The translations under genes and the position numbers were made by a program. 64,000 nt of DNA, from contig NZ_BNCH01000003.1 in assembly GCF_014656375.1 (NCBI RefSeq), positions 248,001 through 312,000 of the forward strand. Reading direction: 5' to 3'. Source of the DNA: Aliiroseovarius zhejiangensis. GTDB taxonomy: Bacteria; Pseudomonadota; Alphaproteobacteria; Rhodobacterales; Rhodobacteraceae. The number at the start of each line of letters is the position of its first letter. Within the stretch, counting starts at the first letter, position 1. Positions 46,030 through 63,937 of the stretch are shown here, piece after piece. The notes under the pieces are model-generated. The model did no database searches, had not been told where the DNA came from, and saw nothing but the letters and a program-made list of their open reading frames with translations.

Positions 46030-46039
46030 TGTGATCACA
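46030..46039. promoter_or_regulatory. TGTGATCACA operator 1 of the sdh promoter
   Basis: A perfect 10-bp palindrome (12 bp with flanking T/A: TTGTGATCACAA). It is paired with 46051-46060 at 21-bp centre spacing. The same pair occurs at sucC and a single site at the GntR gene. The GT-N4-AC core fits GntR-family operators. Confidence 0.7.
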
Positions 46040-46050
46040 AAAATTAATCT

Positions 46051-46060
46051 TGTGATCACA
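46051..46060. promoter_or_regulatory. TGTGATCACA operator 2 of the sdh promoter
   Basis: A perfect palindrome, again within TTGTGATCACAA. The 21-bp centre spacing to operator 1 puts both sites on the same DNA face. The surrounding 45907-46157 spacer holds no gene that I can support. Confidence 0.7.
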
Positions 46061-46157
46061 ACAGGGGTAGCCGTATATCCGACCGAAAATATAGGGCAAT
46101 CCGGCGACAAATGCTGCAAAGCGGCATACGCGCCGGGCTGGTTTCGCGATGCGTTCC

Positions 46158-47192
46158 CTATTTCGGCATCAAGGCCCAGTAATCAAGGTCCAGCATGACG
46201 TCCGGGTGGTATTTGCCATCCTCGCCCTTCAGCGAGAACGCCGGCGCACCGTGCTTTGCCGCCACCAACCGAAGCCGCACGGCCCCTACGCCCGGCGCGT
46301 CGGTGTCGGCCTTGTCCAGAACTTCGGACCAGGCGCGGATCGTGTCGCCCGCGAAGCAGGGGTTCGCGTGTGCCCCGCCATTCAATCCGACGATCATCTG
46401 CGCATTCGCCAACCCGTTGAAGGACAAGGCCCGCGCCATCGAGATCACGTGGCCGCCATAGATAAGCCGCTTCCCGTCTGGCCGGAAGGTGGCGTCGAAA
46501 TGGACCTTGGCCGTGTTCTGCCACAGGCGCGTGGCCAGCATGTGTTCCGCTTCTTCGACGGTCACGCCGTCCACGTGGTCGATCTTTTCGCCAACGTCGT
46601 AATCGCCCCAACGATGCGGCTCACCGGCCAGCGTGAAGTCATAATCTTCGAAAGACAGCCCGGCGGGGATCACCAGATCGTCAGCGTCCAGCGAAGGTTT
46701 CAGGTCAGGGATCACCGTGTCGGGCGCAGGCGCATCCAGGTCGCCCTTGCGCACCATCACCCAGCGCACATAGTCCAGCACGGGCTCGTCCATCTGGTTC
46801 ACACCGCGCGTGCGCACCCAGACCACGCCCGATTTACCGTTTGAGTTCTGTTTCAGCCCGATCACCTCGGATGACGACCGCAGCGTGTCACCCGGATAAA
46901 CCGGCTTCAGCCACCGGCCTTCGGCATAGCCAAGGTTCGCCACGGCGTTCAGAGAAATGTCGGGGACGGTCTTACCGAACACGATGTGAAACGCGATCAG
47001 GTCGTCGATGGGCGACCCGTCCAGCCCGCAATTGCCCGCGAACTCGTCCGAGGAATAGAGCGCATGACGGGCCGGATACAGCGCGTGATACAGCGCACGT
47101 TCCCCTTCGGCCACGGTGCGCGGCACCGCGTGGTGGATCACGTCGCCCAGCTTGTAATCTTCAAAAAAGCGGCCGGGGTTGGTTTTTGCCAT
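46158..47192 (-). CDS. mch: Mesaconyl-CoA hydratase (ethylmalonyl-CoA pathway)
   Basis: A 344-residue double hot-dog hydratase converting mesaconyl-CoA to beta-methylmalyl-CoA in the ethylmalonyl-CoA pathway of acetate assimilation. The start TNPGRFFEDYKLGDVIHHAVPRTV and the segment FAGNCGLDGSPIDDLIAFHIVFGKTVPDISLNA are typical. A MaoC-like site occurs in the YPGDTLRSSSEV and GGHVISMARALSFNGLANAQ regions. It follows DUF1737 with a 1-base overlap. Several neighbours to the right belong to the same metabolism. The catalytic assignment is by similarity. Confidence 0.9.
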   Translation of the reverse strand: MAKTNPGRFFEDYKLGDVIHHAVPRTVAEGERALYHALYPARHALYSSDEFAGNCGLDGSPIDDLIAFHIVFGKTVPDISLNAVANLGYAEGRWLKPVYPGDTLRSSSEVIGLKQNSNGKSGVVWVRTRGVNQMDEPVLDYVRWVMVRKGDLDAPAPDTVIPDLKPSLDADDLVIPAGLSFEDYDFTLAGEPHRWGDYDVGEKIDHVDGVTVEEAEHMLATRLWQNTAKVHFDATFRPDGKRLIYGGHVISMARALSFNGLANAQMIVGLNGGAHANPCFAGDTIRAWSEVLDKADTDAPGVGAVRLRLVAAKHGAPAFSLKGEDGKYHPDVMLDLDYWALMPK

Positions 47193-47395
47193 CAGTAATC
47201 TCCCAGTTTCGTGTCGGGCGTGTAGTCGCCGGGAACGACCTTCACCACCGCTTGCGCGCAGCGCATCTTGCCGGTCGCGGCATCATGGGCATAGGCGGGG
47301 TCGCCATGCAGTTCCCACCCCTTGTTCAGGGCAGCGGTGACTTTGTGACAGAAGGCCGATGTGTCATCTTCGGTCAGCAGGCGATAGAGTTTCAT
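47192..47395 (-). CDS. DUF1737 small protein
   Basis: A 67-residue protein of the DUF1737 family, pattern YRLLTEDDTSAFCHKVTAALNKGWELHGDP with a conserved GW and a charged tail. No known function. Embedded between nnrU and mch with 1-3 base gaps or overlaps, so it belongs to the mcl2-nnrU-DUF1737-mch operon. Confidence 0.85.
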   Translation of the reverse strand: MKLYRLLTEDDTSAFCHKVTAALNKGWELHGDPAYAHDAATGKMRCAQAVVKVVPGDYTPDTKLGDY

Positions 47396-47398
47396 GGC

Positions 47399-47947
47399 TC
47401 ACATTCCAAAGGGCGATGGGCCGATCAGCCCGTGGATGAATCCAATAACCAGTGTCAAAACCACGGACGCGCCAAGGAACATTCCATCCTTCGCGATGGT
47501 GCCCTTGGTGTTGGGTGTCCATTCCGGCTCGGCCCGGTTGATCACAATGATCTCGGCCACCGCCCAGATCGTCAGCGCGCCGAACAGGATGATCGAGGCC
47601 GGGTCCGGGTTCACCACGATATGCGCCACGCTCCAGATGATGAAACCGGTCAGCATCGGGTGGCGCATCCGGTAAAACAGCGCGCCTTTCGACGGGCCGG
47701 GGCTCATGAAATAGATCGCGACGAGGATGGCAAGGTTGTTGATATGTTTCAGGAAGGCCGGATAGGCAAACAGGTCATAGCTTTCGATGCTGCGATAGCC
47801 GATCACCATCAACACGATTCCAACAACCAGAATCAGGGCCGAGACACCCTTGGCCTTGTCCCCCATCGCGGCGTGGCGGGCGGGCAGGGCGCGTTTCCAG
47901 AAATGCCCTGCATACCACAGGGCGATGCCGATGATCATCGTTGCCAT
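47399..47947 (-). CDS. NnrU-family membrane protein
   Basis: A 182-residue protein with about five to six membrane helices and the NnrU-like stretch GALFYRMRHPMLTGFIIWSVAHIVVNPD. NnrU was first linked to nitric-oxide reductase expression, but many homologues sit in loci without denitrification genes, as here. No nor or nir genes are in this window, so I would not infer nitrogen-oxide metabolism. Confidence 0.85.
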   Translation of the reverse strand: MATMIIGIALWYAGHFWKRALPARHAAMGDKAKGVSALILVVGIVLMVIGYRSIESYDLFAYPAFLKHINNLAILVAIYFMSPGPSKGALFYRMRHPMLTGFIIWSVAHIVVNPDPASIILFGALTIWAVAEIIVINRAEPEWTPNTKGTIAKDGMFLGASVVLTLVIGFIHGLIGPSPFGM

Positions 47948-47961
47948 GAACAGTCTCCGCG

Positions 47962-48810
47962 TTAGTCGGCCATTTTGGCGATGGCGTCCGCCTTGGCCAG
48001 AAGTCCCTTTGCCGTCACAACATGCAGGTTTTCGACGATTTTACCATCCACAACCGCGACGCCCTGGCCCGAGGCCTCGGCTTCTTCAAACGCAGCGATC
48101 TGGCGGCGGGCCAGGTCGATCTCGGCGTCCGAGGGCGCAAAGGCGGTGTTCGCGATCTCAAGTTGCGCAGGGTGGATCAGGGTCTTGCCGTCCATCCCCA
48201 TGTCGCGCCCCTGATCGCATTCGGCCCGTAGCCCCTCATCGTCTTTGAAGGCGTTATAGACGCCATCCACGATCACCACACCATGCGCCTTGGCTGCCAG
48301 CAGACACAGATGCAGCCCGCCCATCATCGGCAGACGGTCGGCGCGGAAGCGGGTGTTGAGTTCCTTGGCAAGGTCGTTCGTGCCCATCACGAACCCCTTC
48401 AGGCGCGGGTGGGCGGCGATCTGGGCGGCGTTCAGCATGCCCAGCGGTGTTTCCATCATCGCCCACAGATCGACATCCGGGATCAGGGCCGCCAGTTCGT
48501 CAAGTTGCGCCGCTGACCCAACCTTGGGCATCAGGATTGCATCTATGTCGGCGCCGACGAAAGCCGCCACATCATCCTTGCCCCAATTCGTATCAAAGCC
48601 GTTGATCCGGACGATCTTCGCCCGATTGCCAAAGCCGCCCTTGTCCAGTTCTGCCTTCAGGATCGCGCGGGCCTCGACCTTGGCATCCGGGGCGACGGCG
48701 TCCTCGAGGTCGAAGATGATCGCATCGGTGGGCAGGGTGCGCGCTTTCTCCAGCGCGCGCTCTTTCGAGCCGGGGATATACAGGACGGAACGATAGGGAC
48801 GAGTGGACAT
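47962..48810 (-). CDS. mcl2: CitE-like (3S)-malyl-CoA thioesterase (Mcl2 type)
   Basis: A 282-residue TIM-barrel protein of the CitE/malyl-CoA lyase superfamily. Start RPYRSVLYIPGSKERALEKAR, metal/CoA site DAIIFDLEDAVAPDAK, and WAMMETPLGMLNAA with the catalytic glutamate. The YIPGSKERA start resembles the Rhodobacter sphaeroides (3S)-malyl-CoA thioesterase (Mcl2) more than the larger bifunctional lyase Mcl1. It would release malate in the ethylmalonyl-CoA pathway. An alternative is malyl-CoA/citramalyl-CoA lyase activity. ATG 48810 chosen over non-conserved upstream sequence. Confidence 0.85.
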   Translation of the reverse strand: MSTRPYRSVLYIPGSKERALEKARTLPTDAIIFDLEDAVAPDAKVEARAILKAELDKGGFGNRAKIVRINGFDTNWGKDDVAAFVGADIDAILMPKVGSAAQLDELAALIPDVDLWAMMETPLGMLNAAQIAAHPRLKGFVMGTNDLAKELNTRFRADRLPMMGGLHLCLLAAKAHGVVIVDGVYNAFKDDEGLRAECDQGRDMGMDGKTLIHPAQLEIANTAFAPSDAEIDLARRQIAAFEEAEASGQGVAVVDGKIVENLHVVTAKGLLAKADAIAKMAD

Positions 48811-48921
48811 GATTCTGAGCCTCCGCAATATTGTTGCGCAAGGGACCACATCTGCGCACCATTCCGCAAGGGTGGATTTGCCGCATCGCAGAAATTTCTT
48901 GGTGCCGCGCACCGCTGAAGG

Positions 48922-49680
48922 TCATGTCAGACCATCCCAGATCAGCTTCGTGCCGGTGATGATCAGGAACAGATAGGTGAAGGCAAAGAAGCCCCGCTCG
49001 GACAGGCGGTGGTGCATGTGAACGCCGATCCAGACACCGAGTATGGCAAAGGGGATCAGGAACAGATTGGCCTTGGCCGTCTGCCAGGTAAATATCCCCA
49101 ACGCGAAGTAGGGCACGAATTTCATAAGGTTTATCGCCCAGAAACTGATCACGGTCGTCGCCTGAAACGTGGTTTTGTCCAACCGTCGCGACAACAGGAA
49201 CACCGCCGCAGGGGGGCCGCCCGCATGGCTGATGAAACTGGTAAACCCGGCGATCACCCCCCAGAACCCGCCAAGACCGATCGACATCGGGTGGGATGCG
49301 GGCGTGATCAGACCCCGCGCGCGGGCGGCCTGAAACGCGACGAAGCCGACTGCGATCAGGCCAATCAACAGGCGGAACACATCCGGGTCCGCGATGGAAT
49401 ACACGAGCGCGCCGATGGCCACACCCGGCACGGCGCCCAAGACCAACGCCTTGGCCGATGGCATGTCCCACTTGCGCCAATAGGGTTTCAGCGCAGTTAC
49501 ATCCATCAGCATCAACAGCGGCAACATCAGCCCGATCGCCGCACCCGGTTCCAGAATCAGAGCCAGCAACGGCGTCGCCGCGAAGGCCGCGCCAGAACCG
49601 AAACCGCCCTTGGAAATCCCCGCAAAGATCACTGCGGGGATCGCAAAGACAAAGAAGGTGAGGTCCAGTACCTCGGGCAT
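48922..49680 (-). CDS. TauE/SafE (TSUP) family anion exporter
   Basis: A 252-residue inner-membrane protein with about eight helices and the TSUP signature ISKGGFGSGAAFAATPLLAL near residues 22-42, with a repeat in the second half (LGGFWGVIAGFTSFISHAGGPPAAVFLL). Homologues export sulfite, sulfoacetate or other organic anions. Substrate not predictable. ATG 49680 follows no strong SD. It is divergent from mdh. Confidence 0.85.
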   Translation of the reverse strand: MPEVLDLTFFVFAIPAVIFAGISKGGFGSGAAFAATPLLALILEPGAAIGLMLPLLMLMDVTALKPYWRKWDMPSAKALVLGAVPGVAIGALVYSIADPDVFRLLIGLIAVGFVAFQAARARGLITPASHPMSIGLGGFWGVIAGFTSFISHAGGPPAAVFLLSRRLDKTTFQATTVISFWAINLMKFVPYFALGIFTWQTAKANLFLIPFAILGVWIGVHMHHRLSERGFFAFTYLFLIITGTKLIWDGLT

Positions 49681-49823
49681 GGCGCGTCCCTCAAGCCGCT
49701 GGAAAACGAGTGTTTTAGCGCTATCGCGAATGACGCATTGGGGCAAGCGCAGCCTTATGCCGCAACGCGGCACCCTTGCGCGGACGCAGGATAAGGACTA
49801 CCCATGCGCCCGAAAACAACTGA

Positions 49824-50801
<978 letters not shown>

Positions 50802-50823
50802 TCTGACTTGCGAAACCGTGCCG

Positions 50824-50853
50824 GGGCGTTCCGTTCAGGGACGCCCTTTTTTT
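50824..50853 (+). terminator. Terminator of mdh
   Basis: A 9-bp stem (GGGCGTTCC / GGGACGCCC, one G-T pair) with a five-base loop, followed by seven Ts. One of the strongest terminators in the window. Confidence 0.92.
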
Positions 50854-50913
50854 GTTTTCCCGACACGCCTTTAGAATCAGTTGTTTCGGCGGTTGTAAGC
50901 AGGTGAAGTGTTT

Positions 50914-50923
50914 TGTGATCACA
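50914..50923. promoter_or_regulatory. TGTGATCACA operator 1 of the suc promoter
   Basis: A perfect palindrome upstream of sucC, paired with the site at 50935-50944 at exactly 21 bp centre to centre, the same geometry as at sdhC. Confidence 0.7.
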
Positions 50924-50934
50924 GCATTTTAGCG

Positions 50935-50944
50935 TGTGATCACA
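50935..50944. promoter_or_regulatory. TGTGATCACA operator 2 of the suc promoter
   Basis: A perfect palindrome, 114 bases upstream of the sucC ATG. Same element as upstream of sdhC and of the GntR gene at 63890. Confidence 0.7.
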
Positions 50945-51057
50945 AAAAAGCAGGTTTAGCGCAAAAAACCCCTGTTTCCGCAGAAAGTGTTTTTGAACGA
51001 CCAGTCAGTTGTGCATGGTGTCGGCGACCAAATGGACCAACTGGATAGGATGATTTC

Positions 51058-52251
51058 ATGAACATTCATGAATACCAGGCGAAGGCCCTTCTGAAATCCT
51101 ATGGTGCTCCCGTCTCTGAGGGGCGCGCCGTATTGAAAGCAGAAGATGCCAAGACCGCCGCAGGTGAACTCGACGGCCCCCTTTGGGTGGTGAAAGCGCA
51201 AATCCACGCAGGTGGCCGGGGCAAGGGGTCCTTCAAGGAAGCTGACGCCGGTGAAAAAGGCGGTGTCCGCCTGACCAAGTCGGTGGAAGAAGCCGCCGAA
51301 GAAGCCAAGAAGATGCTGGGCCGCACGCTGGTCACGCACCAGACCGGACCGGCAGGCAAGCAAGTCAACCGCATCTATATCGAGGCCGGCTCCGGCATCG
51401 AGCGTGAGCTTTACCTCGCTCTGTTGGTTGACCGGCAAACCTCGCGCATTTCGTTCGTCTGCTCGACCGAAGGCGGCATGGACATTGAAGAGGTCGCCGC
51501 CGCGACCCCGGAAAAAATCCTGAGCTTCTCGGTCGATCCCGCGACGGGGTATCAAGGCTTCCACGGTCGCCGCATCGCCTTTGCGCTGGGCCTGGAAGGC
51601 GCGCAGGTCAAGCAATGCGTCAAACTGATGGGCCAGCTCTACAAAGCCTTCACCGAAAAGGACATGGAGATGCTGGAGATCAACCCGCTGATCGTATCTG
51701 ACAGTGGTGATCTGAAAGTGCTGGACGCCAAGGTCGGTTTTGACGGCAACGCCGTTTACCGCCACCCGGATATCGCTGAGCTGCGCGACACCACCGAAGA
51801 AGACCCGAAAGAGCTGGAAGCGTCTAAATACGACCTGAACTACATCGCTCTGGACGGTGAAATCGGCTGCATGGTGAACGGTGCGGGCCTTGCGATGGCC
51901 ACGATGGACATCATCAAGCTTTACGGTGCTGAGCCTGCCAACTTCCTTGACGTGGGTGGCGGCGCCACCAAAGAGAAAGTCACTGAGGCCTTCAAGATCA
52001 TCACCTCGGACCCCAACGTGAAGGGCATCCTTGTGAACATCTTCGGCGGCATCATGCGTTGTGACGTGATCGCCGAGGGCGTGGTTGCAGCCGTGAAAGA
52101 AGTGGGCCTGCAGGTTCCGCTGGTCGTGCGTCTGGAAGGCACCAACGTGGAAGCCGGCAAAGACATCATCAACAACTCCGACGTTGATGTGATCGCTGCC
52201 GACAACCTGTCGGACGGCGCAGAGAAAATCGTGAAAGCGGTGAAGGGCTGA
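51058..52251 (+). CDS. sucC: Succinyl-CoA synthetase beta subunit
   Basis: A 397-residue ADP-forming ligase subunit with an ATP-grasp domain at the N-terminus ([41 protein letters not shown]) and a C-terminal CoA-ligase domain ([42 protein letters not shown]). Full length. First gene of the suc operon under the paired TGTGATCACA sites. The stop overlaps by one base with the start of an unrelated AT-richer ORF that separates it from sucD. Confidence 0.97.
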
Positions 52252-52814
52252 TGGGCGTGGTCTTTCGTCTACCAATGCTATTGCTGGTTTCAACAACTCA
52301 CGCTGTGTCAGAACCAGCGTCTGTCGGAGAGTCCATGCGCAGTGTTGAGCCGAAAGACTTCATCTCTGCATTTCTCGGGAATTGTGCTCAGAACCCTGGG
52401 CGATTGGACAAGGTTGGAGCGATCGCATCTACGCTGGGATACGCTGAACTGCCCAAGGAGTATGAGTTGCTGTTAGCCCCCCAAGATCCCCAAGCTCCTT
52501 TCCAAGGTTGGATCGCAACGGACGGACCAGGAGCACCATTTCTCATTGGGATCAGTGAAGGTAAACTTCGAGGTGTCACATATCAATTTTGCGCTGTTTC
52601 TAATCCTTTTTTGGATGCAGAGCGCGCGATGGATATCCTTGAGCAGCATATTCAGCTTTCGCAGCCCTACGTAGATGAATCGACTGCTGGGCAACGCTAC
52701 AGAGCATGGTTGGTAGACGAAGTGCTCAGCGGTGCTTTCTTGTCCACTACAGATATCGGCGGCATGGGATACAGAGGACTCACCCTCTCTATTGCAGCCC
52801 CTAAACAGTATTAA
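52251..52814 (+). CDS. Unknown exported protein inserted between sucC and sucD
   Basis: A 187-residue protein with a putative signal peptide ([20 protein letters not shown]) and a soluble domain with no family I recognise (segments [54 protein letters not shown]). Two cysteines (GNC, QFC) could pair in the periplasm. Its codon use is clearly AT-richer than that of sucC and sucD (many TTG, CAA, GTA codons), a sign of a later arrival. ATG overlaps the sucC TGA by one base, and its stop is 13 bases before sucD, so the operon remains readable. Confidence 0.65.
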
Positions 52815-52827
52815 AGGAGAACGCCAA

Positions 52828-53712
52828 ATGGCAGTCCTTATCGACGAAAACACCAAGGTGATCTGTCAGGGCTTCACCGGCTCGCAGGGGACCTTTCACT
52901 CGGAACAGGCCATTGCGTATGGCACCAAGATGGTCGGCGGTGTGACGCCGGGCAAAGGGGGGCAGACGCATCTGGACCTTCCGGTCTTCAACTCGGTCCA
53001 CGAGGCGAAAGCCAAGACCGAAGCCAATGCATCGGTGATCTATGTGCCGCCGCCCTTCGCAGCGGACTCGATCCTTGAGGCGATTGATGCCGAGATGGAA
53101 CTGATCGTCTGCATCACCGAAGGCATTCCGGTGCTGGACATGATGAAGGTGCAGCGCGCGCTGGACGGCTCGAAATCGCGCCTGATTGGCCCGAACTGCC
53201 CCGGTGTCATCACGCCCGACGCCTGCAAGATCGGCATCATGCCCGGCCACATCCACAAGCGTGGCTCGGTTGGCGTCGTATCGCGCTCCGGCACGCTGAC
53301 CTATGAGGCTGTGAAGCAGACCTCGGACATCGGTCTGGGCCAGTCGACCGCGGTCGGCATCGGCGGTGACCCGATCAAGGGCACCGAGCATATCGACGTG
53401 CTGGACATGTTCCTGGACGATGACGAGACCCAGTCGATCATCATGATCGGTGAAATCGGTGGCTCGGCAGAAGAAGAAGCCGCTGAATTCCTGGCGGACC
53501 AGAAGAAGAAAGGCCGCTGGAAGCCGGTTGCCGGTTTCATCGCTGGCCGTACGGCACCTCCGGGTCGCCGCATGGGCCACGCGGGTGCCATCGTTGCCGG
53601 TGGCAAGGGTGGAGCCGAGGACAAGATCGAAGCCATGCGTTCGGCTGGCATCGTCGTTGCCGACAGCCCCGCCACGCTGGGCGAGGCCGTGCTGGAAGCG
53701 ATCGGCAAGTAA
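52828..53712 (+). CDS. sucD: Succinyl-CoA synthetase alpha subunit
   Basis: A 294-residue subunit carrying the CoA-binding Rossmann domain ([29 protein letters not shown]) and the phosphohistidine, visible in [13 protein letters not shown] near residue 246. AAGGAGA precedes ATG 52828. The operon partner of sucC despite the inserted ORF. A stem-loop lies between it and sucA. Confidence 0.97.
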
Positions 53713-53723
53713 ATATCAAGGCG

Positions 53724-53762: not shown

Positions 53763-53773
53763 CAGGTGAACCC

Positions 53774-56752
53774 ATGACGGATCAAAGCCCCAACGACCTT
53801 TTCCATGCGTCAAGCTTCATGCAAGGTCACAACGCTGAGTATCTTGAACAGCTCTACGCCCAGTATGCGAAGGACCCGAACGCGGTGGACGCCGCGTGGC
53901 AGGCGTTTTTTGCCGAGCTTGGGGATGATGGCGGCGACGTGACCGCCGAGGCGGCCGGGCCGTCCTGGGCGCGCACCGACTGGCCGCCAATGCCAACGGG
54001 CGACCGGGTTCACGGGTTGGACGGCCAATGGCCGGAAGAGCCGGTGGCCGAAGCGAAATCGGCAGGCAAGAAGATCGAAGCGAAGGCGGCTGAAAAGGGC
54101 GTCCAACTGTCTGACGATCAGGTCAGGCGCGCCGTGCTGGACAGTATCCGCGCCCTGATGATCATCCGCGCCTATCGGATCCGGGGGCATCTGGTGGCGG
54201 ATCTTGACCCGCTGGGCATGCGCGAGACGACACCGCACCCCGAACTTGATCCCGCGTCCTATGGGTTCACCGAGGCGGATATGGACCGCCCGATTTTCAT
54301 CGACAACGTGCTGGGGCTGGAAGTCGCCTCGATGCGGCAGATCCTGGCGATTGTGAAAAGCACCTATTGCGGCACATTTGCGCTGCAATACATGCATATT
54401 TCCGATCCCGCCCAATCGGCTTGGCTGAAAGAACGGATCGAAGGGTTTGACCGCGAGATCAAGTTCACCCGCGAAGGCCGCCGCGCCATCCTGAACAAGC
54501 TGGTCGAGGCCGAAGGGTTCGAGAAATTCCTGCACGTGAAATACATGGGCACCAAGCGGTTCGGTCTGGATGGGGGCGAAGCCCTGATCCCCGCGATGGA
54601 ACAGATCATCAAACGCGGCGGTGCGCTGGGCCTGAAAGAGATCGTGATCGGCATGCCGCACCGGGGCCGTCTGTCGGTTCTGGCGAATGTGCTGCAAAAA
54701 CCTTACCGCGCGATTTTCAACGAGTTTCAGGGCGGCAGTTTCAAACCGGAAGAGGTCGATGGCTCTGGCGATGTGAAGTACCATCTTGGCGCCAGCTCGG
54801 ATCGCGAGTTCGACGGCAACATCGTGCACCTCAGCTTGACCGCGAACCCGTCCCACCTTGAGGCCGTGAACCCGGTCGTGTTGGGTAAGGTGCGCGCCAA
54901 GCAAGAACAGATGAACGACAAGGACCGCGATCAGGTGTTGCCGATCCTGCTGCATGGTGATGCGGCGTTTGCCGGTCAGGGTGTCGTGGCCGAGGGGTTT
55001 GGCCTGTCTGGTCTGGTCGGTCACAAGACCGGGGGCACAATGCATGTCATTGTGAACAACCAGATCGGGTTTACCACCGCGCCGCATTTCAGCCGCTCGT
55101 CGCCCTACCCCACGGATATCGCGCTGATGGTGGAAGCGCCGATTTTCCACGTGAATGGTGACGATCCCGAGGCCGTGGTTCACGCCGCCCGCGTCGCGAC
55201 CGAGTTCCGCCAGAAGTTCCACAAGGACGTGGTTCTGGACATTTTCTGCTATCGCCGTTTTGGTCACAACGAAGGCGACGAGCCGATGTTCACCAACCCG
55301 CTCATGTACAAGCGGATCAAGAAGCACCAGACCACGCTTCAGATCTATACCGATCGGCTGGTCAAGGATGGTTTGATCCCGGCGGGCGAGATCGAGGACA
55401 TGAAAGCCGCCTTCCAGGCCAAGATGAACGAAGAGTTCGAGGCCGGGAAGGAATACAAGCCCAACAAGGCCGACTGGCTGGATGGGCGCTGGTCGCATCT
55501 GGAACGCGAAAGCGATGAATACCAGCGCGGCAAGACCGATATTTCCACGGACACGCTGGCCGAGGTCGGCAAGGCCCTGACAACGGTCCCCGAAGGCTTT
55601 CCGCTGCACAAAACCGTGGGCCGGCTGCTGGAAGCCAAGAAAGAGATGTTTGAAACCGGCACCGGCTTTGACTGGGCAACCGGCGAGGCGATTGCCTTCG
55701 GATCTCTCTTGACCGAAGGTTTCCCGGTTCGCCTGTCGGGTCAGGATGCCACGCGCGGCACGTTCAGCCAGCGCCATTCCGGCCTGATCAACCAGGACAC
55801 GGAAGAACGCTATTATCCCCTGAACCACATCCGCGAGGGTCAATCGCGGTATGAGGTGATCGACTCGATGCTGTCGGAATACGCGGTGCTGGGCTTCGAA
55901 TACGGCTATTCGCTGGCCGAACCCAACGCGTTGGTGATGTGGGAAGCGCAGTTCGGCGATTTTGCCAACGGTGCGCAGATCATGTTCGACCAGTTCATCT
56001 CGTCCGGCGAGTCGAAATGGCTGCGCATGTCCGGCCTGACCGTCCTTTTGCCGCATGGCTATGAAGGGCAGGGGCCAGAACACAGTTCGGCCCGTCTGGA
56101 ACGCTTCCTGCAAATGTGCGGCGGTGACAACTGGATCGTGGCCAACTGCACCACGCCTGCCAACTATTTCCACATTCTGCGCCGCCAGCTTCATCGCGGC
56201 TATCGCAAGCCGCTGATCCTGATGACGCCGAAATCGCTTCTGCGTCACAAGTTGGCGGTGTCGGATGCCAAGGACTTCACCGAAGGCTCCAGCTTCCACC
56301 GCGTATTGTGGGACGACGGTGATCGTGACAATGGCACCGGCCGGTCCGAGGCCAAGCTGGTCACGGACAAGAAGATCAAGCGCGTCGTGATGTGTTCGGG
56401 CAAGGTCTATTACGACCTCTTGGAAGAACGCGACCGCCGCGGCATCACCGACATCTATCTGCTGCGGCTTGAACAGTTCTATCCCTTCCCCGCCATGTCG
56501 GTGGTCAAGGAACTGGAACGCTTCAAGCAGGCCGAGATCGTCTGGTGTCAGGAAGAACCCAAGAACCAGGGCGCCTGGTTCTTCGTCGAACCGAATATCG
56601 AATGGGTGCTGACCCGGATCGGGGCCAAGCATACGCGGCCCGTCTATGCCGGGCGTCCGGCATCGGCGTCCCCCGCCACCGGTCTGGCATCACAGCACAA
56701 AGCACAACAAGAGGCGCTCGTCGACGCGGCGCTGAACATGGAAGGAAATTAA
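53774..56752 (+). CDS. sucA: 2-oxoglutarate dehydrogenase E1 component
   Basis: A 992-residue thiamine-diphosphate decarboxylase of the 2-oxoglutarate dehydrogenase complex. The N-terminus DLFHASSFMQGHNAEYLEQLYAQY is the E2/E3-binding part. Family blocks: MPHRGRLSVLANVLQKP, LHGDAAFAGQGVVAEGFGLSGL (ThDP/Mg region), NNQIGFTT, and LLPHGYEGQGPEHSSARLERFLQ in the transketolase-like domain. ATG 53774 chosen. The long in-frame region upstream overlaps sucD in another frame. It lies 3 bases before sucB. Confidence 0.97.
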   Translation: MTDQSPNDLFHASSFMQGHNAEYLEQLYAQYAKDPNAVDAAWQAFFAELGDDGGDVTAEAAGPSWARTDWPPMPTGDRVHGLDGQWPEEPVAEAKSAGKKIEAKAAEKGVQLSDDQVRRAVLDSIRALMIIRAYRIRGHLVADLDPLGMRETTPHPELDPASYGFTEADMDRPIFIDNVLGLEVASMRQILAIVKSTYCGTFALQYMHISDPAQSAWLKERIEGFDREIKFTREGRRAILNKLVEAEGFEKFLHVKYMGTKRFGLDGGEALIPAMEQIIKRGGALGLKEIVIGMPHRGRLSVLANVLQKPYRAIFNEFQGGSFKPEEVDGSGDVKYHLGASSDREFDGNIVHLSLTANPSHLEAVNPVVLGKVRAKQEQMNDKDRDQVLPILLHGDAAFAGQGVVAEGFGLSGLVGHKTGGTMHVIVNNQIGFTTAPHFSRSSPYPTDIALMVEAPIFHVNGDDPEAVVHAARVATEFRQKFHKDVVLDIFCYRRFGHNEGDEPMFTNPLMYKRIKKHQTTLQIYTDRLVKDGLIPAGEIEDMKAAFQAKMNEEFEAGKEYKPNKADWLDGRWSHLERESDEYQRGKTDISTDTLAEVGKALTTVPEGFPLHKTVGRLLEAKKEMFETGTGFDWATGEAIAFGSLLTEGFPVRLSGQDATRGTFSQRHSGLINQDTEERYYPLNHIREGQSRYEVIDSMLSEYAVLGFEYGYSLAEPNALVMWEAQFGDFANGAQIMFDQFISSGESKWLRMSGLTVLLPHGYEGQGPEHSSARLERFLQMCGGDNWIVANCTTPANYFHILRRQLHRGYRKPLILMTPKSLLRHKLAVSDAKDFTEGSSFHRVLWDDGDRDNGTGRSEAKLVTDKKIKRVVMCSGKVYYDLLEERDRRGITDIYLLRLEQFYPFPAMSVVKELERFKQAEIVWCQEEPKNQGAWFFVEPNIEWVLTRIGAKHTRPVYAGRPASASPATGLASQHKAQQEALVDAALNMEGN

Positions 56753-56755
56753 GCC

Positions 56756-58246
56756 ATGAGCATTGAAGTAAGGGTCCCGACACTGGGCGAAAGCGTCACC
56801 GAAGCAACCGTCGCAACCTGGTTCAAGAAACCCGGTGATGTGGTGGCCGTGGACGAAATGCTCTGCGAGCTTGAAACCGACAAGGTGACGGTCGAGGTCC
56901 CGTCCCCCGCCGCCGGTGTGATGGGCGAAATCGTCGCGGCCGAAGGGGAAACGGTGGGTGTCGACGCGCTTCTGGCCACGATCAGCGAAGGCGAAGGGGC
57001 CGCCCCTGCGCCTGCTCAGGACGCCAAAGCCGACAGCAAACCCGCAAGCTCTGACGCGCAGGCCGTCGACGTGATGGTGCCCAGTCTGGGTGAAAGCGTG
57101 ACCGAAGCGACCGTGTCCAGCTGGTTCAAGCAGGTTGGCGATACCGTCGCGCAGGATGAAATGCTGTGCGAGCTGGAAACCGACAAAGTATCGGTCGAGG
57201 TCCCGGCCCCGACAGGAGGTGTTTTGGCCGAGATCCTCGCCCCCGAAGGCACAACCGTCGACGCGTCGGCGAAACTGGCCGTGATCAGCGGCAGCGCGGA
57301 TGGGGCCGTGGAACCCGCCCCCAAACCCGCATCGGCACAGGCGTCGGCAACGACCGGCAAGGATGTCGAAGACGCCCCCTCCGCCAAGAAAGCCATGGCC
57401 GAGGCCGGTCTGAAACCGGGCGATGTGCAGGGTACGGGCCGTGATGGTCGCGTGATGAAACATGATGTGGCCGCTGCTGTTGCCGCACCGAAGGCTGCGC
57501 CTGCCCCGGCAGCCGCGCCTGCCGCCCCGCGCCCTGCTGGCGACGCCGCGCGCGAGGAACGCGTGAAGATGACGCGCCTGCGTCAGACCATCGCGCGCCG
57601 TCTGAAAGACAGCCAGAACACCGCCGCCATGCTGACCACCTATAACGAGGTGGACATGACCGAGGTGATGGCGCTGCGCAACGAATACAAAGCCGAGTTC
57701 GAAAAGAAACACGGCGTGCGTCTGGGCTTCATGTCTTTCTTCACCAAGGCCTGCTGCCACGCGCTGAAGGAAGTGCCGGAAGTGAATGCCGAAATTGACG
57801 GCACCGACATTGTTTACAAGAACTACGTGAACATGGGTGTCGCTGCTGGCACGCCCACGGGTCTTGTGGTGCCGGTGATCAATGATGCTGATGCCATGTC
57901 CTTTGCCGCGATCGAAAAAGCGATTGCCGAAAAGGGCCGCAAAGCCCGTGATGGCAAGCTGTCGATGGAGGAAATGCAGGGCGGCACCTTCACCATCTCG
58001 AACGGTGGCGTCTATGGCTCGCTCATGTCCTCGCCGATCCTGAACCCGCCGCAATCGGGTATCCTTGGCATGCACAAAATCCAGGACCGCCCGATGGCGA
58101 TCAACGGAGAGGTCGTCATCCGCCCGATGATGTATCTGGCGCTGAGCTATGACCACCGGATCGTGGACGGCAAAGGCGCTGTGACCTTCCTTGTGCGCGT
58201 GAAAGAGGCGCTGGAAGATCCACGTCGGTTGTTGATGGATTTGTGA
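56756..58246 (+). CDS. sucB: 2-oxoglutarate dehydrogenase E2 (dihydrolipoyl succinyltransferase), two lipoyl domains
   Basis: A 496-residue core acyltransferase of the complex. Two lipoyl domains are clearly present: residues about 1-78 and 103-178, each with the lipoylated lysine in an ELETDKV motif (Lys43 and Lys144). A peripheral subunit-binding domain follows ([20 protein letters not shown]) with an Ala/Pro linker. The catalytic domain ends with [13 protein letters not shown] (His467, Asp471). Most E. coli-type SucB proteins have one lipoyl domain. Start 3 bases after sucA. Confidence 0.96.
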
Positions 58247-58265
58247 AGGAAGAGAAGTATCTCAG

Positions 58266-58574
58266 ATGGTTCTAATTGTTACGTGTATAGTGATCGCGGT
58301 GATAATCAAAACCATTTGGGATCTACTTTTTCGCAAAATCGAGCGAGAGAAGCTGTTAGCGTCATATGCTGAGAGTCCTCTGTCCCATTTGTTTACAATG
58401 GTTTGGGCGGTATTCTTTGTGATGTTCTTCGTGGGAATATTCGTTCCTATGTTTGGAAATATCCAAGTGACTGTGTCAGGCTGGAAGGTTTGGCAGATCG
58501 GTTTTTTCGGTAACTTTGGTATGTGGCTGATCACCTGGTTCATAGACGTCGATGAATTAGACGAAAGCAGGTAG
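58266..58574 (+). CDS. Small membrane protein of unknown function
   Basis: A 102-residue hydrophobic protein with three likely helices (VLIVTCIVIAVIIKTIW, MVWAVFFVMFFVGIFVPMF, IGFFGNFGMWLITWFI) and a charged loop FRKIEREKLLASYAESPL. I recognise no family. Its codon use is strikingly AT-rich (ATA, TTA, AAA codons) against the GC-rich sucB before and lpd after it, suggesting horizontal acquisition. It follows sucB by 19 bases, so it is probably co-transcribed. Confidence 0.6.
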   Translation: MVLIVTCIVIAVIIKTIWDLLFRKIEREKLLASYAESPLSHLFTMVWAVFFVMFFVGIFVPMFGNIQVTVSGWKVWQIGFFGNFGMWLITWFIDVDELDESR

Positions 58575-58593
58575 GGCCAAGGAGAAACATGAA

Positions 58594-58686
58594 ATGATCG
58601 AGTGCGAATTAGGCTACAGCAGTTTCACCGACGTTTACGTTGAAAGTTGCGGAAGACATGAGCAAGCTGGGGCTAAGCACACATGA
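58594..58686 (+). CDS. Possible 30-residue micro-protein
   Basis: A short ORF starting MIECELGYSSFTDVYVESC, preceded by AAGGAG nine bases upstream, and ending in a TGA that overlaps the ATG of the MAPEG gene (ATGA at 58683). The SD and the coupling make translation plausible, even if only to deliver ribosomes to the next gene. Two cysteines, hydrophilic. It could equally be chance. Confidence 0.35.
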   Translation: MIECELGYSSFTDVYVESCGRHEQAGAKHT

Positions 58687-59072
58687 CCCCCGAACTCACC
58701 ATCCTCGCCCTCGCAGGCCTGCTGCAAGTGGTCCAGTTCTGCATCTACTCCGTTCTGGCGCAGATGCAGGTCGGGTCGAAATACGCGGCCTCTCCGCGCG
58801 ATACGCCGCGCGAGTTGACGGGCAAGGCGGGGCGCGCGCAGCGGGCGTTGAACAACCATTTCGAAGGGCTGATCCTGTTCACCGCCGCCGTGGTGGTGGT
58901 CACCGTATCGGGGCAATCCACCGCGACGAGCCAAACATGCGCCTATGTCTATCTGGCCGCGCGGCTTTTGTATCTGCCCGCCTATCTTTTTGGCTGGTCG
59001 CCCTGGCGATCGCTGATCTGGGCCGTGGGGCTGATCGCGACGGCGGTGATGTTGATCTCGGCGCTCATATGA
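58683..59072 (+). CDS. MAPEG-family membrane protein
   Basis: A 129-residue protein with four membrane helices of the MAPEG superfamily (eicosanoid/glutathione-type membrane proteins), with conserved region ALNNHFEGLILFTAAVVVV (the E-x-L-x-F of helix II) and AARLLYLPAYLFG near the end. Function in bacteria is largely unknown. GC-rich codon use like the core genes. It lies between the suc genes and lpd. Confidence 0.8.
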   Translation: MTPELTILALAGLLQVVQFCIYSVLAQMQVGSKYAASPRDTPRELTGKAGRAQRALNNHFEGLILFTAAVVVVTVSGQSTATSQTCAYVYLAARLLYLPAYLFGWSPWRSLIWAVGLIATAVMLISALI

Positions 59073-59160
59073 ATATCACTAGGTAAAAACATGCTCCGGG
59101 GCGCGCCGGGCGAGGGCTGACAGAGGCCACGCCCGGACCCCAAACGAAAGGACAAGACAC

Positions 59161-60546
59161 ATGGCAGACTATGACGTAATTATCATCGGCGGCGGCCCGG
59201 GCGGCTATGTCTGCGCGATCCGTTGTGCCCAGCTGGGTCTGAAAACCGCCTGTGTCGAAGGGCGCGAGACCCTGGGCGGCACCTGCCTGAACGTCGGCTG
59301 CATCCCGTCCAAGGCGCTGCTGCACGCGTCCCACAGCCTGCACGAGGCCGAACACAACTTCGCCAAGATGGGCCTGAAGGGCAAAAGCCCCTCGGTCGAT
59401 TGGAAGCAGATGTTGGCTTACAAGGATGACGTCATTGGCCAGAACACCAAGGGCATCGAGTTCCTGTTCAAGAAGAACAAGGTCGATTGGCTGAAAGGCT
59501 GGGGCTCGATCCCCGCCGCCGGTCAGGTGAAGGTTGGTGACGAGGTGCACAAGGCCAAGCATATCGTGATTGCTTCCGGATCCGAGCCGTCCAGCCTGCC
59601 TGGGGTCGAGGTGGACGAAAAAGTCGTCGTGACCTCGACCGGGGCGCTCGAGCTGCCGAAGGTTCCCAAGAAGATGGTGGTGATCGGGGCCGGTGTGATC
59701 GGGCTGGAAATGGGGTCTGTCTATGCCCGTTTGGGGGCCGAGGTGACGGTGGTCGAATACCTCGACATGATCACGCCGGGGATGGACAAGGATCTGGCCA
59801 AAACGTTCCAGCGTGCGCTGAAAAAGCAGGGTCTGAGCTTTGTCATGGGCGCGGCTGTTCAAAGTGTGGACGCCAAGAAAACCAAGGCCACGGTGAACTA
59901 CAAGCTGCGCAAGGATGACAGCGATCATACGATTGACGCCGATGTGGTGCTGGTCGCCACCGGGCGTCGTCCCTATGTCGACGGTCTGGGGCTGGACGCG
60001 CTGGGCGTGAAGATGACCGAGCGCGGGCAGATCGCCACGGATCATTGGAAAACCTCGGTCGATGGGATCTGGGCCATTGGCGATGTCATCGAAGGTCCGA
60101 TGCTGGCGCACAAGGCCGAGGATGAAGGCATGGCGGTCGCCGAAGCCATCGCCGGTCAGGCGGGCCATGTGAATTACGACGTCATCCCGGGCGTCGTTTA
60201 TACCGCACCCGAGGTGGCGTCCGTCGGCAAGACCGAAGAGCAGTTGAAGGAAGACGGCCGCGCCTACAAGGTCGGCAAGTTCAGCTTCATGGGCAATGGC
60301 CGCGCCAAGGCTGTGTTCCAGGGTGACGGTTTCGTGAAAATTCTGGCCGACAAAGACACCGACCGCGTGTTGGGCGTTCACATCATGGGCCCCGCAGCGG
60401 GGGAGTTGATCCACGAAGCGTGCGTGTTGATGGAGTTCGGCGGGTCAGCCGAGGATCTGGCCCGCACCTGCCACGCCCACCCGACTTTCTCGGAAGCGGT
60501 GCGCGAGGCGGCGCTGGCCTGTGGGGACGGCGCGATCCACGCCTGA
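59161..60546 (+). CDS. lpdA: Dihydrolipoamide dehydrogenase (E3)
   Basis: A 461-residue flavoprotein disulfide reductase that reoxidises lipoamide on SucB. FAD motif [18 protein letters not shown], redox-active pair Cys42/Cys47 in [19 protein letters not shown] motif [20 protein letters not shown] and catalytic His/Glu in [14 protein letters not shown]. Its place in the suc locus fits a role in the 2-oxoglutarate dehydrogenase complex. A strong terminator follows. Confidence 0.96.
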
Positions 60547-60566
60547 ACCCACCCCCACCCCAAAGA

Positions 60567-60605
60567 GAAAGCCACCGGATCGCTCCGGTGGCTTTCGTGT
60601 TTTTG
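60567..60605 (+). terminator. Terminator after lpdA
   Basis: A perfect 13-bp stem GAAAGCCACCGGA / TCCGGTGGCTTTC with a TCGC loop, then GTGTTTTT. It closes the suc-lpd transcription unit and is 20 bases from the convergent symporter stop. Confidence 0.93.
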
Positions 60606-60623
60606 GCTCTTACGAGTGTCAGA

Positions 60624-62168
60624 TCAGTGGAACTTGCGAATTTCCCCTGACTTGAGGCGTGACAGATAGCTGTTCAGCTCGGTCTTCACGATCGGCATCA
60701 GGCAATACAGCGCCACGATGTTTACGACCGCCATGGCAAAGATCGCCGCGTCCGAGAAGTCGATCACCGGGCCAAGGTTGGCCGAGGCGCCGATCACCAC
60801 GAAGATGCAGAAGATCACTTTGAACACGATCTCTTTCGTGTGTCCTTCGCCAAACAGGAAGGTCCAAGCCTTCAGCCCGTAATAGGACCAGCTGATCATG
60901 GTCGAGAAGGCGAACAGGATCACCGCGATCGCCAGCACGTATTTGAACCAGCCGAAGGTCGACGAGAAAGCCGCCGAGGTCAGCGCCACGCCCTTGTTGC
61001 CGTCGATGGTCTGGATCGTCGATGCGCCTTCGTCCAGCAGGTACATGCCCGTGGCCGGGTCGCTGACCAACTGACCGGTGATGATGATCACAAGCGCAGT
61101 CATCGTGCAGATGACGACAGTGTCGATGAACGGCTCCAACAGGGACACGAACCCTTCGGTGATTGGTTCTTTGGTGCGCACGGCCGAGTGGGCAATGGCG
61201 GCCGAGCCAACGCCAGCCTCGTTCGAAAACGCGGCCCGCTTGAAGCCCTGGATCAGCGCGCCGACCATACCGCCCGCGACACCAAGACCGGTGAAGGCCC
61301 CTGCAAAGATCTGTCCGAAGGCCCAGCCGATCATGTCGGCATTCATCAACAGGATGACCAGCGCGGTCAGAACATACATGACGCCCATGAACGGCACGAC
61401 TTTCTCGGTCACGCTGGCGATGGATTTCAGGCCGCCGATGATGACCGCGAACACGATTGTGGCAAACACGATGCCGGTAATCCAGCCGGGGAAGTCACCG
61501 ACCACATTGGCGATCTGCGCGTGGGCCTGGTTGGCCTGGAACATGTTGCCGCCACCCAACGCGCCGAGGATACAGAAGACCGAAAACAGGATCGCCATAA
61601 ATTTGCCCGCAGGCAACCCACGTTCGGCAAAGCCCTTGGTCATGTAATACATCGGGCCGCCGGACACGGTGCCGTCTTCGTATTCATTGCGATATTTTAC
61701 ACCCAAGGTGCATTCGGTGAATTTTGACGCCATGCCCATCAGACCCGCAAGGATCATCCAGAACGTAGCCCCCGGCCCACCGATGCCCACTGCGACCGCA
61801 ACGCCCGCGATGTTGCCAAGCCCCACGGTGCCCGACAGGGCAGTGGCGAGCGCCTGGAAGTGGCTGACCTCGCCCGCGTCATCGGGGTCGGAATAGTCCC
61901 CTTTCACAAGCGAGATCGAATGCGGAAATGCTCTAAACTGGATCAGGCCGAAGTAGATCGTGAAGATTGTTGCCGCGATCACCAGCCAGGCCACGATCCA
62001 AGGAAAGGACGTGCCCGGGAAGGGGCTGAAGATGAAGCTGACAAACCAACCGGTCGAGCTGGCAAACATGTCGTTGATTTTTTGGTCCATGGATTGGGCC
62101 ATCGCGGGCGCCGTCGCTGCCAGCATGACCGGTGCGGCCCATGCCGCTTTTTTGAAACTGTTTCTCAT
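60624..62168 (-). CDS. Sodium:alanine symporter family (AGCS) permease
   Basis: A 514-residue inner-membrane transporter of small neutral amino acids driven by sodium. The AGCS signature region is seen in GPGATFWMILAGLMGMASKFTECTLGVKYRNE. The N-terminus (KKAAWAAPVMLAATAPAMAQ) looks like a cleavable signal peptide, an uncommon but recurring trait in alphaproteobacterial members. About eleven membrane helices. It is followed upstream on the same strand by a UspA gene with only 24 bases between, so the two may form an operon. Confidence 0.9.
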   Translation of the reverse strand: MRNSFKKAAWAAPVMLAATAPAMAQSMDQKINDMFASSTGWFVSFIFSPFPGTSFPWIVAWLVIAATIFTIYFGLIQFRAFPHSISLVKGDYSDPDDAGEVSHFQALATALSGTVGLGNIAGVAVAVGIGGPGATFWMILAGLMGMASKFTECTLGVKYRNEYEDGTVSGGPMYYMTKGFAERGLPAGKFMAILFSVFCILGALGGGNMFQANQAHAQIANVVGDFPGWITGIVFATIVFAVIIGGLKSIASVTEKVVPFMGVMYVLTALVILLMNADMIGWAFGQIFAGAFTGLGVAGGMVGALIQGFKRAAFSNEAGVGSAAIAHSAVRTKEPITEGFVSLLEPFIDTVVICTMTALVIIITGQLVSDPATGMYLLDEGASTIQTIDGNKGVALTSAAFSSTFGWFKYVLAIAVILFAFSTMISWSYYGLKAWTFLFGEGHTKEIVFKVIFCIFVVIGASANLGPVIDFSDAAIFAMAVVNIVALYCLMPIVKTELNSYLSRLKSGEIRKFH

Positions 62169-62192
62169 GACTATCCCTGTTCGCATTGTTAT

Positions 62193-62627
62193 TTAAGGAA
62201 CGATGGTGACCGGCACCGGCGAGATTTGCGCCAGCGTGCCCGCGACCGAGCCGAAGATGCGCGATGACAGACCTGAATGGCCGGTGCGCCCGACCACCAC
62301 CTGCGTGGCGCCCTCGGCTTCGACGATGTCACATAGCGTGTCGGCAATGCCGCCATATTTCAGCGCGGTTGTCACCGTGACGCCGCTGTCAGCCAGCCCT
62401 TTGACGACCGGGGCCAGCACGGCGGTTTCGGCGCGCTCCAGCTCCTCGGCCCGCCGCTTGTGGCGTTCCTCGAGTTCGTTGGGTGTCAGGAACGAATAGG
62501 GCGACCATTCCAGAACATGGGCCACCACGATGGCCGCGCCCTGCGATTTGGCCAGCCCGACGGCGAAATCCAGCGTCGCTTTCGAACTGTCGCTGCCATC
62601 GTATCCGACGACGATCTTGTTGGACAT
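62193..62627 (-). CDS. Universal stress protein, single UspA domain
   Basis: A 144-residue cytoplasmic protein. Start SNKIVVGYDGSDSSKATLDFAV. The ATP-binding motif VVVGRTGHSGLSSRIFGSVA fits G-x2-G-x9-G-S exactly, so it should bind ATP. SD GGGAGGAAG is before the ATG. It is divergent from the Lrp regulator with a 146-base AT-rich gap in between, and upstream of the symporter gene. Confidence 0.9.
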   Translation of the reverse strand: MSNKIVVGYDGSDSSKATLDFAVGLAKSQGAAIVVAHVLEWSPYSFLTPNELEERHKRRAEELERAETAVLAPVVKGLADSGVTVTTALKYGGIADTLCDIVEAEGATQVVVGRTGHSGLSSRIFGSVAGTLAQISPVPVTIVP

Positions 62628-62773
62628 TTTCTTCCTCCCTTGTGTGAACGTGTCACGTGTTAAGCAACTTCAGCCTAGCAGTGGTTGGCTTGAAAAGGTT
62701 CCTTATTTTCTTGCGTGAAAGGATAATTTACGTAAAAACTACGAACCAGAACAGAATCTTCGGAAAATATACG
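62628..62773. other. Divergent promoter region of uspA and lrp
   Basis: An AT-rich 146-base spacer between divergent starts, with TTGCGTGAAAGGATAATTTA and other A/T-rich stretches that suit Lrp-type binding. I cannot define single boxes. Confidence 0.4.
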
Positions 62774-63229
62774 ATGGATAAGCTAGACACTAGAATACTT
62801 TCCATCCTGCAAAAGGATGGCGCGATCTCGATGTCGAATCTGTCTGACCAGGTGGGGCTGTCCATTTCCGCCTGTCACCGGCGGGTCAAGATGCTTGAGG
62901 CAGACGGGCTGATCACCAACTACGCGGCGCGCCTGAACCGCAAGGCGATCGGCTTCGAAATCCAGGTGTTCATCGAAGCGAAGCTGGTCAGTCAGCGGCG
63001 GGAAGATATTCAGGCCTTCGAAGCAGCGATTCTGGACATGCCGGAAGTGCTGGAATGCCACCTGATTTCGGGTGATTTCGATTATCTGCTGCGGGTGGCG
63101 GCGCGCAATACTGAGGATTACGAGAAGCTGTATCGCGAACGACTGTCCTCGATCCCATCCTTTGCGCAGATGAAAACGCTGCTCAGCCTGTCAACGGTGA
63201 AAGAGTTCCGGGGCTTCCATCTGGGTTAG
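62774..63229 (+). CDS. Lrp/AsnC-family transcriptional regulator
   Basis: A 151-residue regulator. The N-terminal winged helix KLDTRILSILQKDGAISMSNLSDQVGLSISACHRRVKMLE is typical (LD..IL..LQ.DGR), and the C-terminal RAM ligand-binding domain contains LECHLISGDFDYLLRVAARNTEDYEKLYRERLSSIPS. Start at ATG 62774. An upstream in-frame start at 62657 would add sequence from the AT-rich promoter. Because it is divergent from uspA and the alanine symporter, amino-acid-responsive control of these is a reasonable inference. Confidence 0.9.
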   Translation: MDKLDTRILSILQKDGAISMSNLSDQVGLSISACHRRVKMLEADGLITNYAARLNRKAIGFEIQVFIEAKLVSQRREDIQAFEAAILDMPEVLECHLISGDFDYLLRVAARNTEDYEKLYRERLSSIPSFAQMKTLLSLSTVKEFRGFHLG

Positions 63230-63236
63230 TCGGGCG

Positions 63237-63890
63237 TCAGTCTGCCACCAGCATTTTCAGGCCCTGCGTGACGTCCGTGCGCACGGCAAGTCGCAGGGCA
63301 GGCTCATCCCCCGCGGCCAGAGCCGACAGGATCATCCGGTGATGTCGTTGCAGATCGGTGCGCTGACGCCGGGCATAAAGGGCGCGCATGGTCGGGCCAA
63401 GTTGCAGCCAGACGGTTTCGGCCACCGCAAGGATCGCCGGGGCCTGCGCGCGCAGATAGAGCGTGCGGTGAAACTCCAGATTGGTGCGCAGATACCCGAC
63501 CGCATCCTGTTTGGTCACGCATTCCGACACCCGCACATTGATCGCCCGCAGCCGGTCGATCAGCGCCATATGGGCGCGGGGCAGGGCGCGCGCAGCCAAT
63601 TCCGGTTCCAGCAAGGACCGCAACGCGGCCAGTTCCTCGATCCGCTCCGCCGTCAGGTCGGGGGCCGATACGCGGCCCGAACTGGACAGGGTCAGCGCGC
63701 CTTCGGCGGCCAATCGGCGCACCGCTTCGCGGGCCGGGGTCATCGAGACCTCGTATTCCGTGCCGATCCCCCGGATGGTCAGGCTTTGCCCCGGATCCAG
63801 TTCGCCATGCATGATGCGCGCGCGCAGGCTGCGATACACGCGTTCATGGGCGCTGGAGGTGTCGGATTGTGGACGGGTCTGGGCCTGCAT
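63237..63890 (-). CDS. GntR-family transcriptional regulator with FCD domain
   Basis: A 217-residue regulator. The GntR winged helix occupies about residues 12-80 (YRSLRARIMHGELDPGQSLTIRGI, VSMTPAREAVRRLAAEGAL). The C-terminal all-helical FCD domain has the likely metal ligands in LRTNLEFHRTLY and the HHRMILSALAAGD helix, where small carboxylates usually bind. Start at ATG 63890 (MQAQTRPQ). A TGTGATCACA palindrome lies 9 bases upstream of the ATG, pointing to autoregulation. The same palindromes occur before sdhC and sucC, so I infer these as targets. Convergent with lrp. Confidence 0.9.
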   Translation of the reverse strand: MQAQTRPQSDTSSAHERVYRSLRARIMHGELDPGQSLTIRGIGTEYEVSMTPAREAVRRLAAEGALTLSSSGRVSAPDLTAERIEELAALRSLLEPELAARALPRAHMALIDRLRAINVRVSECVTKQDAVGYLRTNLEFHRTLYLRAQAPAILAVAETVWLQLGPTMRALYARRQRTDLQRHHRMILSALAAGDEPALRLAVRTDVTQGLKMLVAD

Positions 63891-63898
63891 GATGAGAC

Positions 63899-63908
63899 TG
63901 TGATCACA
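63899..63908. promoter_or_regulatory. TGTGATCACA site upstream of the GntR gene
   Basis: The same perfect palindrome as the four sites at sdhC and sucC, located 9 bases before the start codon. A weaker AGTGATCAGT lies 34 bp further (centre spacing) at 63933-63942. Confidence 0.65.
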
Positions 63909-63937
63909 AATGCACGCGGCGTCAACTGCCCCAGTGA

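Follow-up and report, generated by a model that had tools for sequence, protein, structure and literature searches.

The palindrome TGTGATCACA recurs in a 64,000-nucleotide stretch of the Aliiroseovarius zhejiangensis genome (contig NZ_BNCH01000003.1; the stretch at its full length is called the window here), in pairs before the sdh and suc operons and as a single copy before a gene of the GntR family with an FCD domain. The copies almost certainly serve as binding sites for AkgR, a regulator that has already been described. Across genomes of the family, the paired sites and the GntR gene travel together, and the two-turn spacing within the pair is widely kept. An initial annotation made from the sequence had joined the GntR gene, the two promoters and the motif into one regulatory unit. 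Its logic was largely right: the regulatory code is real and strongly conserved.

An exact search of the 64-kb window returned exactly five copies of TGTGATCACA, at the positions that the annotation had claimed (46030, 46051, 50914, 50935 and 63899), and no further copy appeared even with one mismatch allowed. Dinucleotide shuffles of the window contain a mean of 0.11 exact copies, and five were reached in none of 100. The spacing of 21 bp centre to centre proposed for the pairs before sdhC and sucC is true of both, and the single site occupies 63899-63908, the A of the ATG of the GntR/FCD gene being 63890. A genome-wide count had been suggested as a check; when run on the whole genome (19 contigs, 3.42 Mb) it gave nine exact copies, with exact 21-bp pairs confined to the sdhC and sucC promoters. 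Two weak pairs elsewhere are added if up to 3 mismatches are tolerated. For nine randomly placed sites about 2e-5 neighbours at exactly 21 bp are expected, in agreement with the earlier judgement that a shared element with a shared spacing is unlikely to arise by chance. Shuffles, the reversed-pattern controls described below and this pair-spacing expectation together reject a chance origin of the window sites. Scaled from 0.11 per 64 kb, chance alone would supply about 6 copies per genome, and the four exact copies beyond the window are no excess over that number. Three of them, on contig 5, were dismissed as operators and ascribed to chance, being sited inside long reading frames. The fourth lies on contig 11 between folC and zapE; for this copy the chance explanation was dropped because it is conserved and belongs to a two-operator element discussed further on.

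The regulator can be named by comparison with R. sphaeroides, where we take RSP_0981 to be AkgR and RSP_1663 to be CceR. We further take one of the genomes compared, G118, as R. sphaeroides, since its PufL is 100% identical to the R. sphaeroides sequence. The gene order in G118 is lpd, sucB, sucA, sucD (placed from the reading-frame list), sucC, mdh, a relative of mcl1, mch, sdhC, sdhA, sdhB and gntR, and the product of this gntR is 74% identical to the window protein. PMC4344238 predicts that the GntR protein RSP_0981 controls three sets of genes, namely sucCD (RSP_0967-6), sdh (RSP_0974-6) and, for 2-oxoglutarate dehydrogenase, sucAB-lpd (RSP_0965-62). Because the order in G118 fits this locus numbering, its gntR stands in the position of RSP_0981, the tag being deduced from the numbers. 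Judged by the 74% identity and the matching map position, the window gene is the orthologue of RSP_0981 (AkgR). The domains detected in the window protein are PF00392 (1.2e-14) and PF07729 (1.3e-17), and the identity of the G118 protein suggests that AkgR itself would have an FCD domain. The initial annotation knew of no described regulator with exactly this arrangement, but the regulator itself is not new: RSP_0981 is predicted for the same operons (PMC4344238), PMC6365646 refers to AkgR as an activator of transcription whose sites include GTGATCAC, and the paper describing AkgR is cited in PMC11323563. The regulator and its main targets are already known, in R. sphaeroides. Literature searches with motif strings found no relevant paper, and neither the 20-22 bp phasing nor the self-operator nor the fourth locus was found in print, the text of the original AkgR paper lying outside the coverage.

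Other identities fared less well. NCBIfam equivalogs and subfamilies of GntR proteins (PRK11414, PdhR, LldR, NanR, CsiR and others) yield a top score of 76.1 bits, where the curated cut-off is 225, and solved structures include distant GntR relatives only, the best being 4p9f, McbR, at E 4e-16. SdhR, of the HutC subfamily, was rejected as well, its operator being TCTTATGTCTTATATAAGACATAAGA (PMC4494728) as opposed to TGTGATCACA in the window, where the ligand domain of the protein is FCD. Genomic setting is variable: lpd lies nearby in 13 of 32 orthologue stretches of other genomes, and in the remaining 19 neither lpd nor any other searched gene of the tricarboxylic acid (TCA) cycle was found within about 10 kb, bar a 42% relative of lpd in one stretch (L189).

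The association of site and gene was followed through the family. The exact pair is present in 237 of 394 family genomes (393 genera), with at most two per genome, and a reversed-pattern control scored 0 in every one of the 394. A scan of named genomes returned at least 119 stretches with the exact pair, 80 of which were read as loci; nearly all of these 80 are labelled Rhodobacteraceae or Rhodobacterales, the others being Maritalea (L033), a metagenome-assembled genome of Robiginitomaculum (L036) and an unclassified alphaproteobacterium (L064). They hold 81 exact pairs, 65 before sucC and 14 before sdhC, and the last two (L024, L080) sit at the locus edge near mdh and were left unassigned by the script. 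An orthologue (at least 67% identity) was found in each of 40 genomes sampled from the 237, and in 22 of 23 named exact-pair genomes searched. Pairless genomes listed at a completeness of at least 97% number 107; among the first 80 of them, which were searched, 66 have an orthologue (at least 57% identity) and 14 do not, three with only a 34-40% relative being counted among the 14. In the 70 sucC promoters read from this set, a near-pair, defined as at most 3 mismatches over both sites, accompanies the orthologue in 55 of 56 genomes and occurs in 1 of 14 without it (Fisher p about 4e-12, shared ancestry uncorrected). Shuffled sucC promoters gave best pairs with mostly 7-9 mismatches. The spacing of the 55 near-pairs is 21 bp in 42, 20 bp in 12 and 22 bp in 1. 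The proposed comparison of sucC sites in genomes with and without the GntR gene thus shows the pair following the orthologue, and these counts uphold the view that gene, promoters and motif belong together.

Conservation extends to the promoters themselves. In an alignment of 18 sdhC promoters of the genus, own included, the operator pair, the GTTAGCGCAA box, a GTGACT -35, a CTATTC-like -10 and a 17-bp spacer all line up, and the GTGATCAC core of the operators is kept in all 18. Counted from the ATG, the two operators start at positions -154 and -133, followed by the box at -104 and by the -35 and -10 elements, which start at -66 and -43. These sdhC promoter elements are predicted, as is the activation geometry they suggest: if transcription starts about 7 bp beyond the -10, the centres of the operators would fall near -118 and -97. 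Before sucC the starts are -144 and -123 for the operators and -102 for a TTAGCGCAA box; part of the genus has an operator spacing of 20 bp there and has lost the box. AkgR may work together with CceR. A motif is given for RSP_1663, for which control over sdh and mdh is predicted in R. sphaeroides (PMC4344238); the GTTAGCGC box resembles one half of it and may be a CceR half-site, which we offer as a lead and not as a test.

At the promoter of akgR the arrangement is different. The single operator shares four bases with the predicted -10, so that a bound dimer should block the promoter, and transcription would begin only a short distance from the ATG. TTGAC recurs at about the place of the -35 in many orthologue rows outside the genus. 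All 20 genus orthologues examined, the window's own among them and the split gene of G007 outside the set, have the self-operator in exact form; beyond the genus it is exact in 42 and has one mismatch in 5 of 61 distinct orthologues (62 in total), as against about 0.2 of 62 in the shuffle control. With an operator conserved in the gene's own promoter, the autoregulation suggested by the initial annotation is likely, and it probably takes the form of self-repression.

Taken together, very probably the AkgR orthologue occupies each TGTGATCACA, paired dimers activating sdh and suc and a single dimer repressing its own gene. One dimer would bind each palindrome. At sdhC and sucC two dimers would lie on the same face of the DNA with two helical turns between them, near -118 and -97 relative to the predicted sdhC start, and would activate the operons from upstream. 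A second factor, for which CceR is the candidate, may join them at the GTTAGCGC box that separates operators from promoter. At akgR a single dimer over part of the -10 would block transcription and give negative feedback. The annotation had left it at 'represses or activates': activation is what the literature supports for the targets (PMC6365646), and repression is probable, by inference, for the regulator's own gene.

Repression of sdh and suc by the window protein, relieved by a carboxylate, is improbable. Many FCD regulators are repressors, but 57 bp separate the end of the proximal operator from the predicted sdhC -35 downstream of it, which is unfavourable for a steric block, and AkgR is called an activator (PMC6365646). 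It is more improbable still that the reader of the pairs is a different GntR paralogue (G000:C1:704237, about 39% identity) or an unrelated factor, the window gene merely sharing the motif. Paralogues of 33-44% identity are common in the family, and a 32% relative in Pseudomonas has been proposed to use GTGATCAC (PMC6365646); against this, the pair follows the orthologue of the window gene. Moreover, no second GntR match reaches E<=1e-30 in 24 of the 55 genomes with near-pair and orthologue (the candidates scored numbered only 37 in a few genomes). Pairs can therefore exist without the 33-44% paralogue, and a 9-kb stretch around the genome's own paralogue (L204) has no copy of TGTGATCACA with at most one mismatch. 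As sole reader of the pairs the paralogue is rejected by the co-occurrence data. The gene itself spans G000:C1:704237-704833, and relatives of it occur in many family genomes. CRP/FNR- and Rex-type sites look like TGTGA-N6-TCACA and have the TGTGA/TCACA halves in common with the window sites, but in the window sites the two halves are directly adjacent, lacking the 6-bp spacer, and the pair is found together with the GntR gene, which leaves such a factor with almost no likelihood.

Some observations count against activation and feedback by the AkgR orthologue. The orthologue searches cover 40 of 237 genomes in one case and 80 of 107 in the other, and the 70 sucC promoters read come from all 14 genomes without an orthologue and from 56 of the 66 with one. 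Exceptions occur in both directions: G244 has the orthologue and no sucC near-pair, G181 (320 contigs) has a near-pair and only a 37% relative, and the genome behind L036 has the exact pair and no orthologue match. The core promoter of sucC could not be placed in the promoters compared. The GTTAGCGC box fits only half of the published RSP_1663 motif (PMC4344238), differs at sdhC in L303, one of the 18 genus members aligned, and is absent from the sucC promoter in some members of the genus. Finally, the self-operator is missing in 14 of the 61 distinct orthologues outside the genus, G118 included.

Compared with known systems, the window regulator is closest to AkgR (RSP_0981), of the GntR/FCD type, which it resembles in its 74% identity, map position, sdh and suc targets and GTGATCAC core. 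It differs in having an operator over its own -10, which G118 is without, and in standing past lpd, whereas the R. sphaeroides gene stands past sdhB. CceR (RSP_1663), of the LacI family, is alike in its predicted control of sdh, and a half-site-like box is found at both window promoters, but protein family and motif are different. The GntR-like PS417_07240 of a Pseudomonas deoxyribonate oxidation cluster is 32% identical to AkgR and has a GTGATCAC site near its own start, but it serves another pathway, and one conserved site is described (PMC6365646).

Outside the window, the copy on contig 11 belongs to a possible fourth locus. Between folC and zapE a first operator (C11:56748-56761) and a second (C11:56494) lie 256 bp apart, and the element as a whole (C11:56494-56966, L011:6495-6967) consists of promoter-like sequence bracketed by the two operators, a covarying 5' stem-loop and a short frame. 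Both operators are present in 19 of 20 genus genomes examined, own included, with a further mismatch in the first in L358; in the twentieth, L380, folC does not adjoin zapE and no site was found. Since 14 of the 20 were found via the second operator itself, the set collected by zapE only (L376-L381) is the fairer one, with 5 of 6. The operators are 255-260 bp apart (18 measured), and a TTGAC-type -35 lies at distances of 119-121 bp (first operator) and 135-139 bp (second operator). The stem-loop predicted after this promoter has 13 pairs; in the 16 sequences compared, both sides are changed in three of the pairs, and some pairs are broken in one to three sequences. In L347 and L375 a long frame behind the promoter extends beyond the stretch read, a 138-residue part of it matching rhodanese at 1.4e-05 over residues 95-125; in the eight other relatives that were translated, just a short frame is left, 37-43 residues in length, with the operator still inside it. 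Rfam holds nothing credible for the element, its two matches being far below gathering scores, and a covariance model of the leader, under strict filters, matched only the two same-genus genomes among the 394 of the family. In 23 genomes of other genera (L382-L404) no operator with at most one mismatch follows zapE, and in several the gap to folC is very short. Tentatively, AkgR might in this genus hold the locus through a long-range pair, looping or roadblocking the promoter of a small regulatory RNA that would tie TCA flux to other genes.

Coordinates are collected in Table 1. Between lpd and akgR the window holds genes for a sodium:alanine symporter, a universal stress protein and an Lrp/AsnC protein (60624-63229); none of the trio was found in 10 of 17 genus stretches, and in one more, L303, the AsnC gene was not found. 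Between sdhC and mdh (46158-48912) lie a mesaconyl-CoA hydratase-like gene and an HpcH/HpaI-aldolase (malyl-CoA lyase-like) gene, ordered as in G118.

Table 1. Predicted regulatory elements and associated genes of the window (window coordinates).
Feature	Position	Strand	Remarks
AkgR-type operator, distal, before sdhC	46051..46060	.	centre 149.5 bp before ATG; predicted
AkgR-type operator, proximal, before sdhC	46030..46039	.	centre 128.5 bp before ATG; predicted
GTTAGCGCAA box, between operator pair and sdhC promoter	46001..46010	-	CceR (RSP_1663) half-motif likeness; candidate
sdhC -35 GTGACT, predicted	45967..45972	-	conserved in genus alignment
sdhC -10 CTATTC, predicted	45944..45949	-	17 bp after -35; small changes in some genus members
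sdhC, first gene of sdh operon	45523..45906	-	Pfam Sdh_cyt 2e-32; ATG at 45906
sdhA	43317..45122	-	Pfam Succ_DH_flav_C
sdhB	42525..43304	-	Pfam Fer2_3
AkgR-type operator, distal, before sucC	50914..50923	.	exact TGTGATCACA; predicted
AkgR-type operator, proximal, before sucC	50935..50944	.	exact TGTGATCACA; predicted
TTAGCGCAA box downstream of sucC pair	50956..50964	+	CceR-like candidate; kept in only part of genus
sucC, first gene of suc operon	51058..52251	+	Pfam ATP-grasp_2 and Ligase_CoA
sucA, 2-oxoglutarate dehydrogenase E1	53801..56752	+	Pfam
sucB, E2 subunit	56756..58246	+	Pfam
akgR orthologue, GntR wHTH + FCD domain, 217 aa	63237..63890	-	74% identical to G118 gene standing where RSP_0981 must lie
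akgR promoter operator, single	63899..63908	.	exact in all genus orthologues examined; predicted
akgR -35 TTGACG, predicted	63920..63925	-	17-bp spacer to predicted -10 at 63897-63902

In the Rhodobacteraceae, a major marine family, a single dedicated regulator appears to govern the TCA cycle, with a regulon that is small and operators of unusually strict geometry. This makes a requirement for helical phase open to testing, and likewise the feedback loop. If the self-operator is truly missing in R. sphaeroides, where AkgR was studied, part of the circuit is lacking in the best-known species.

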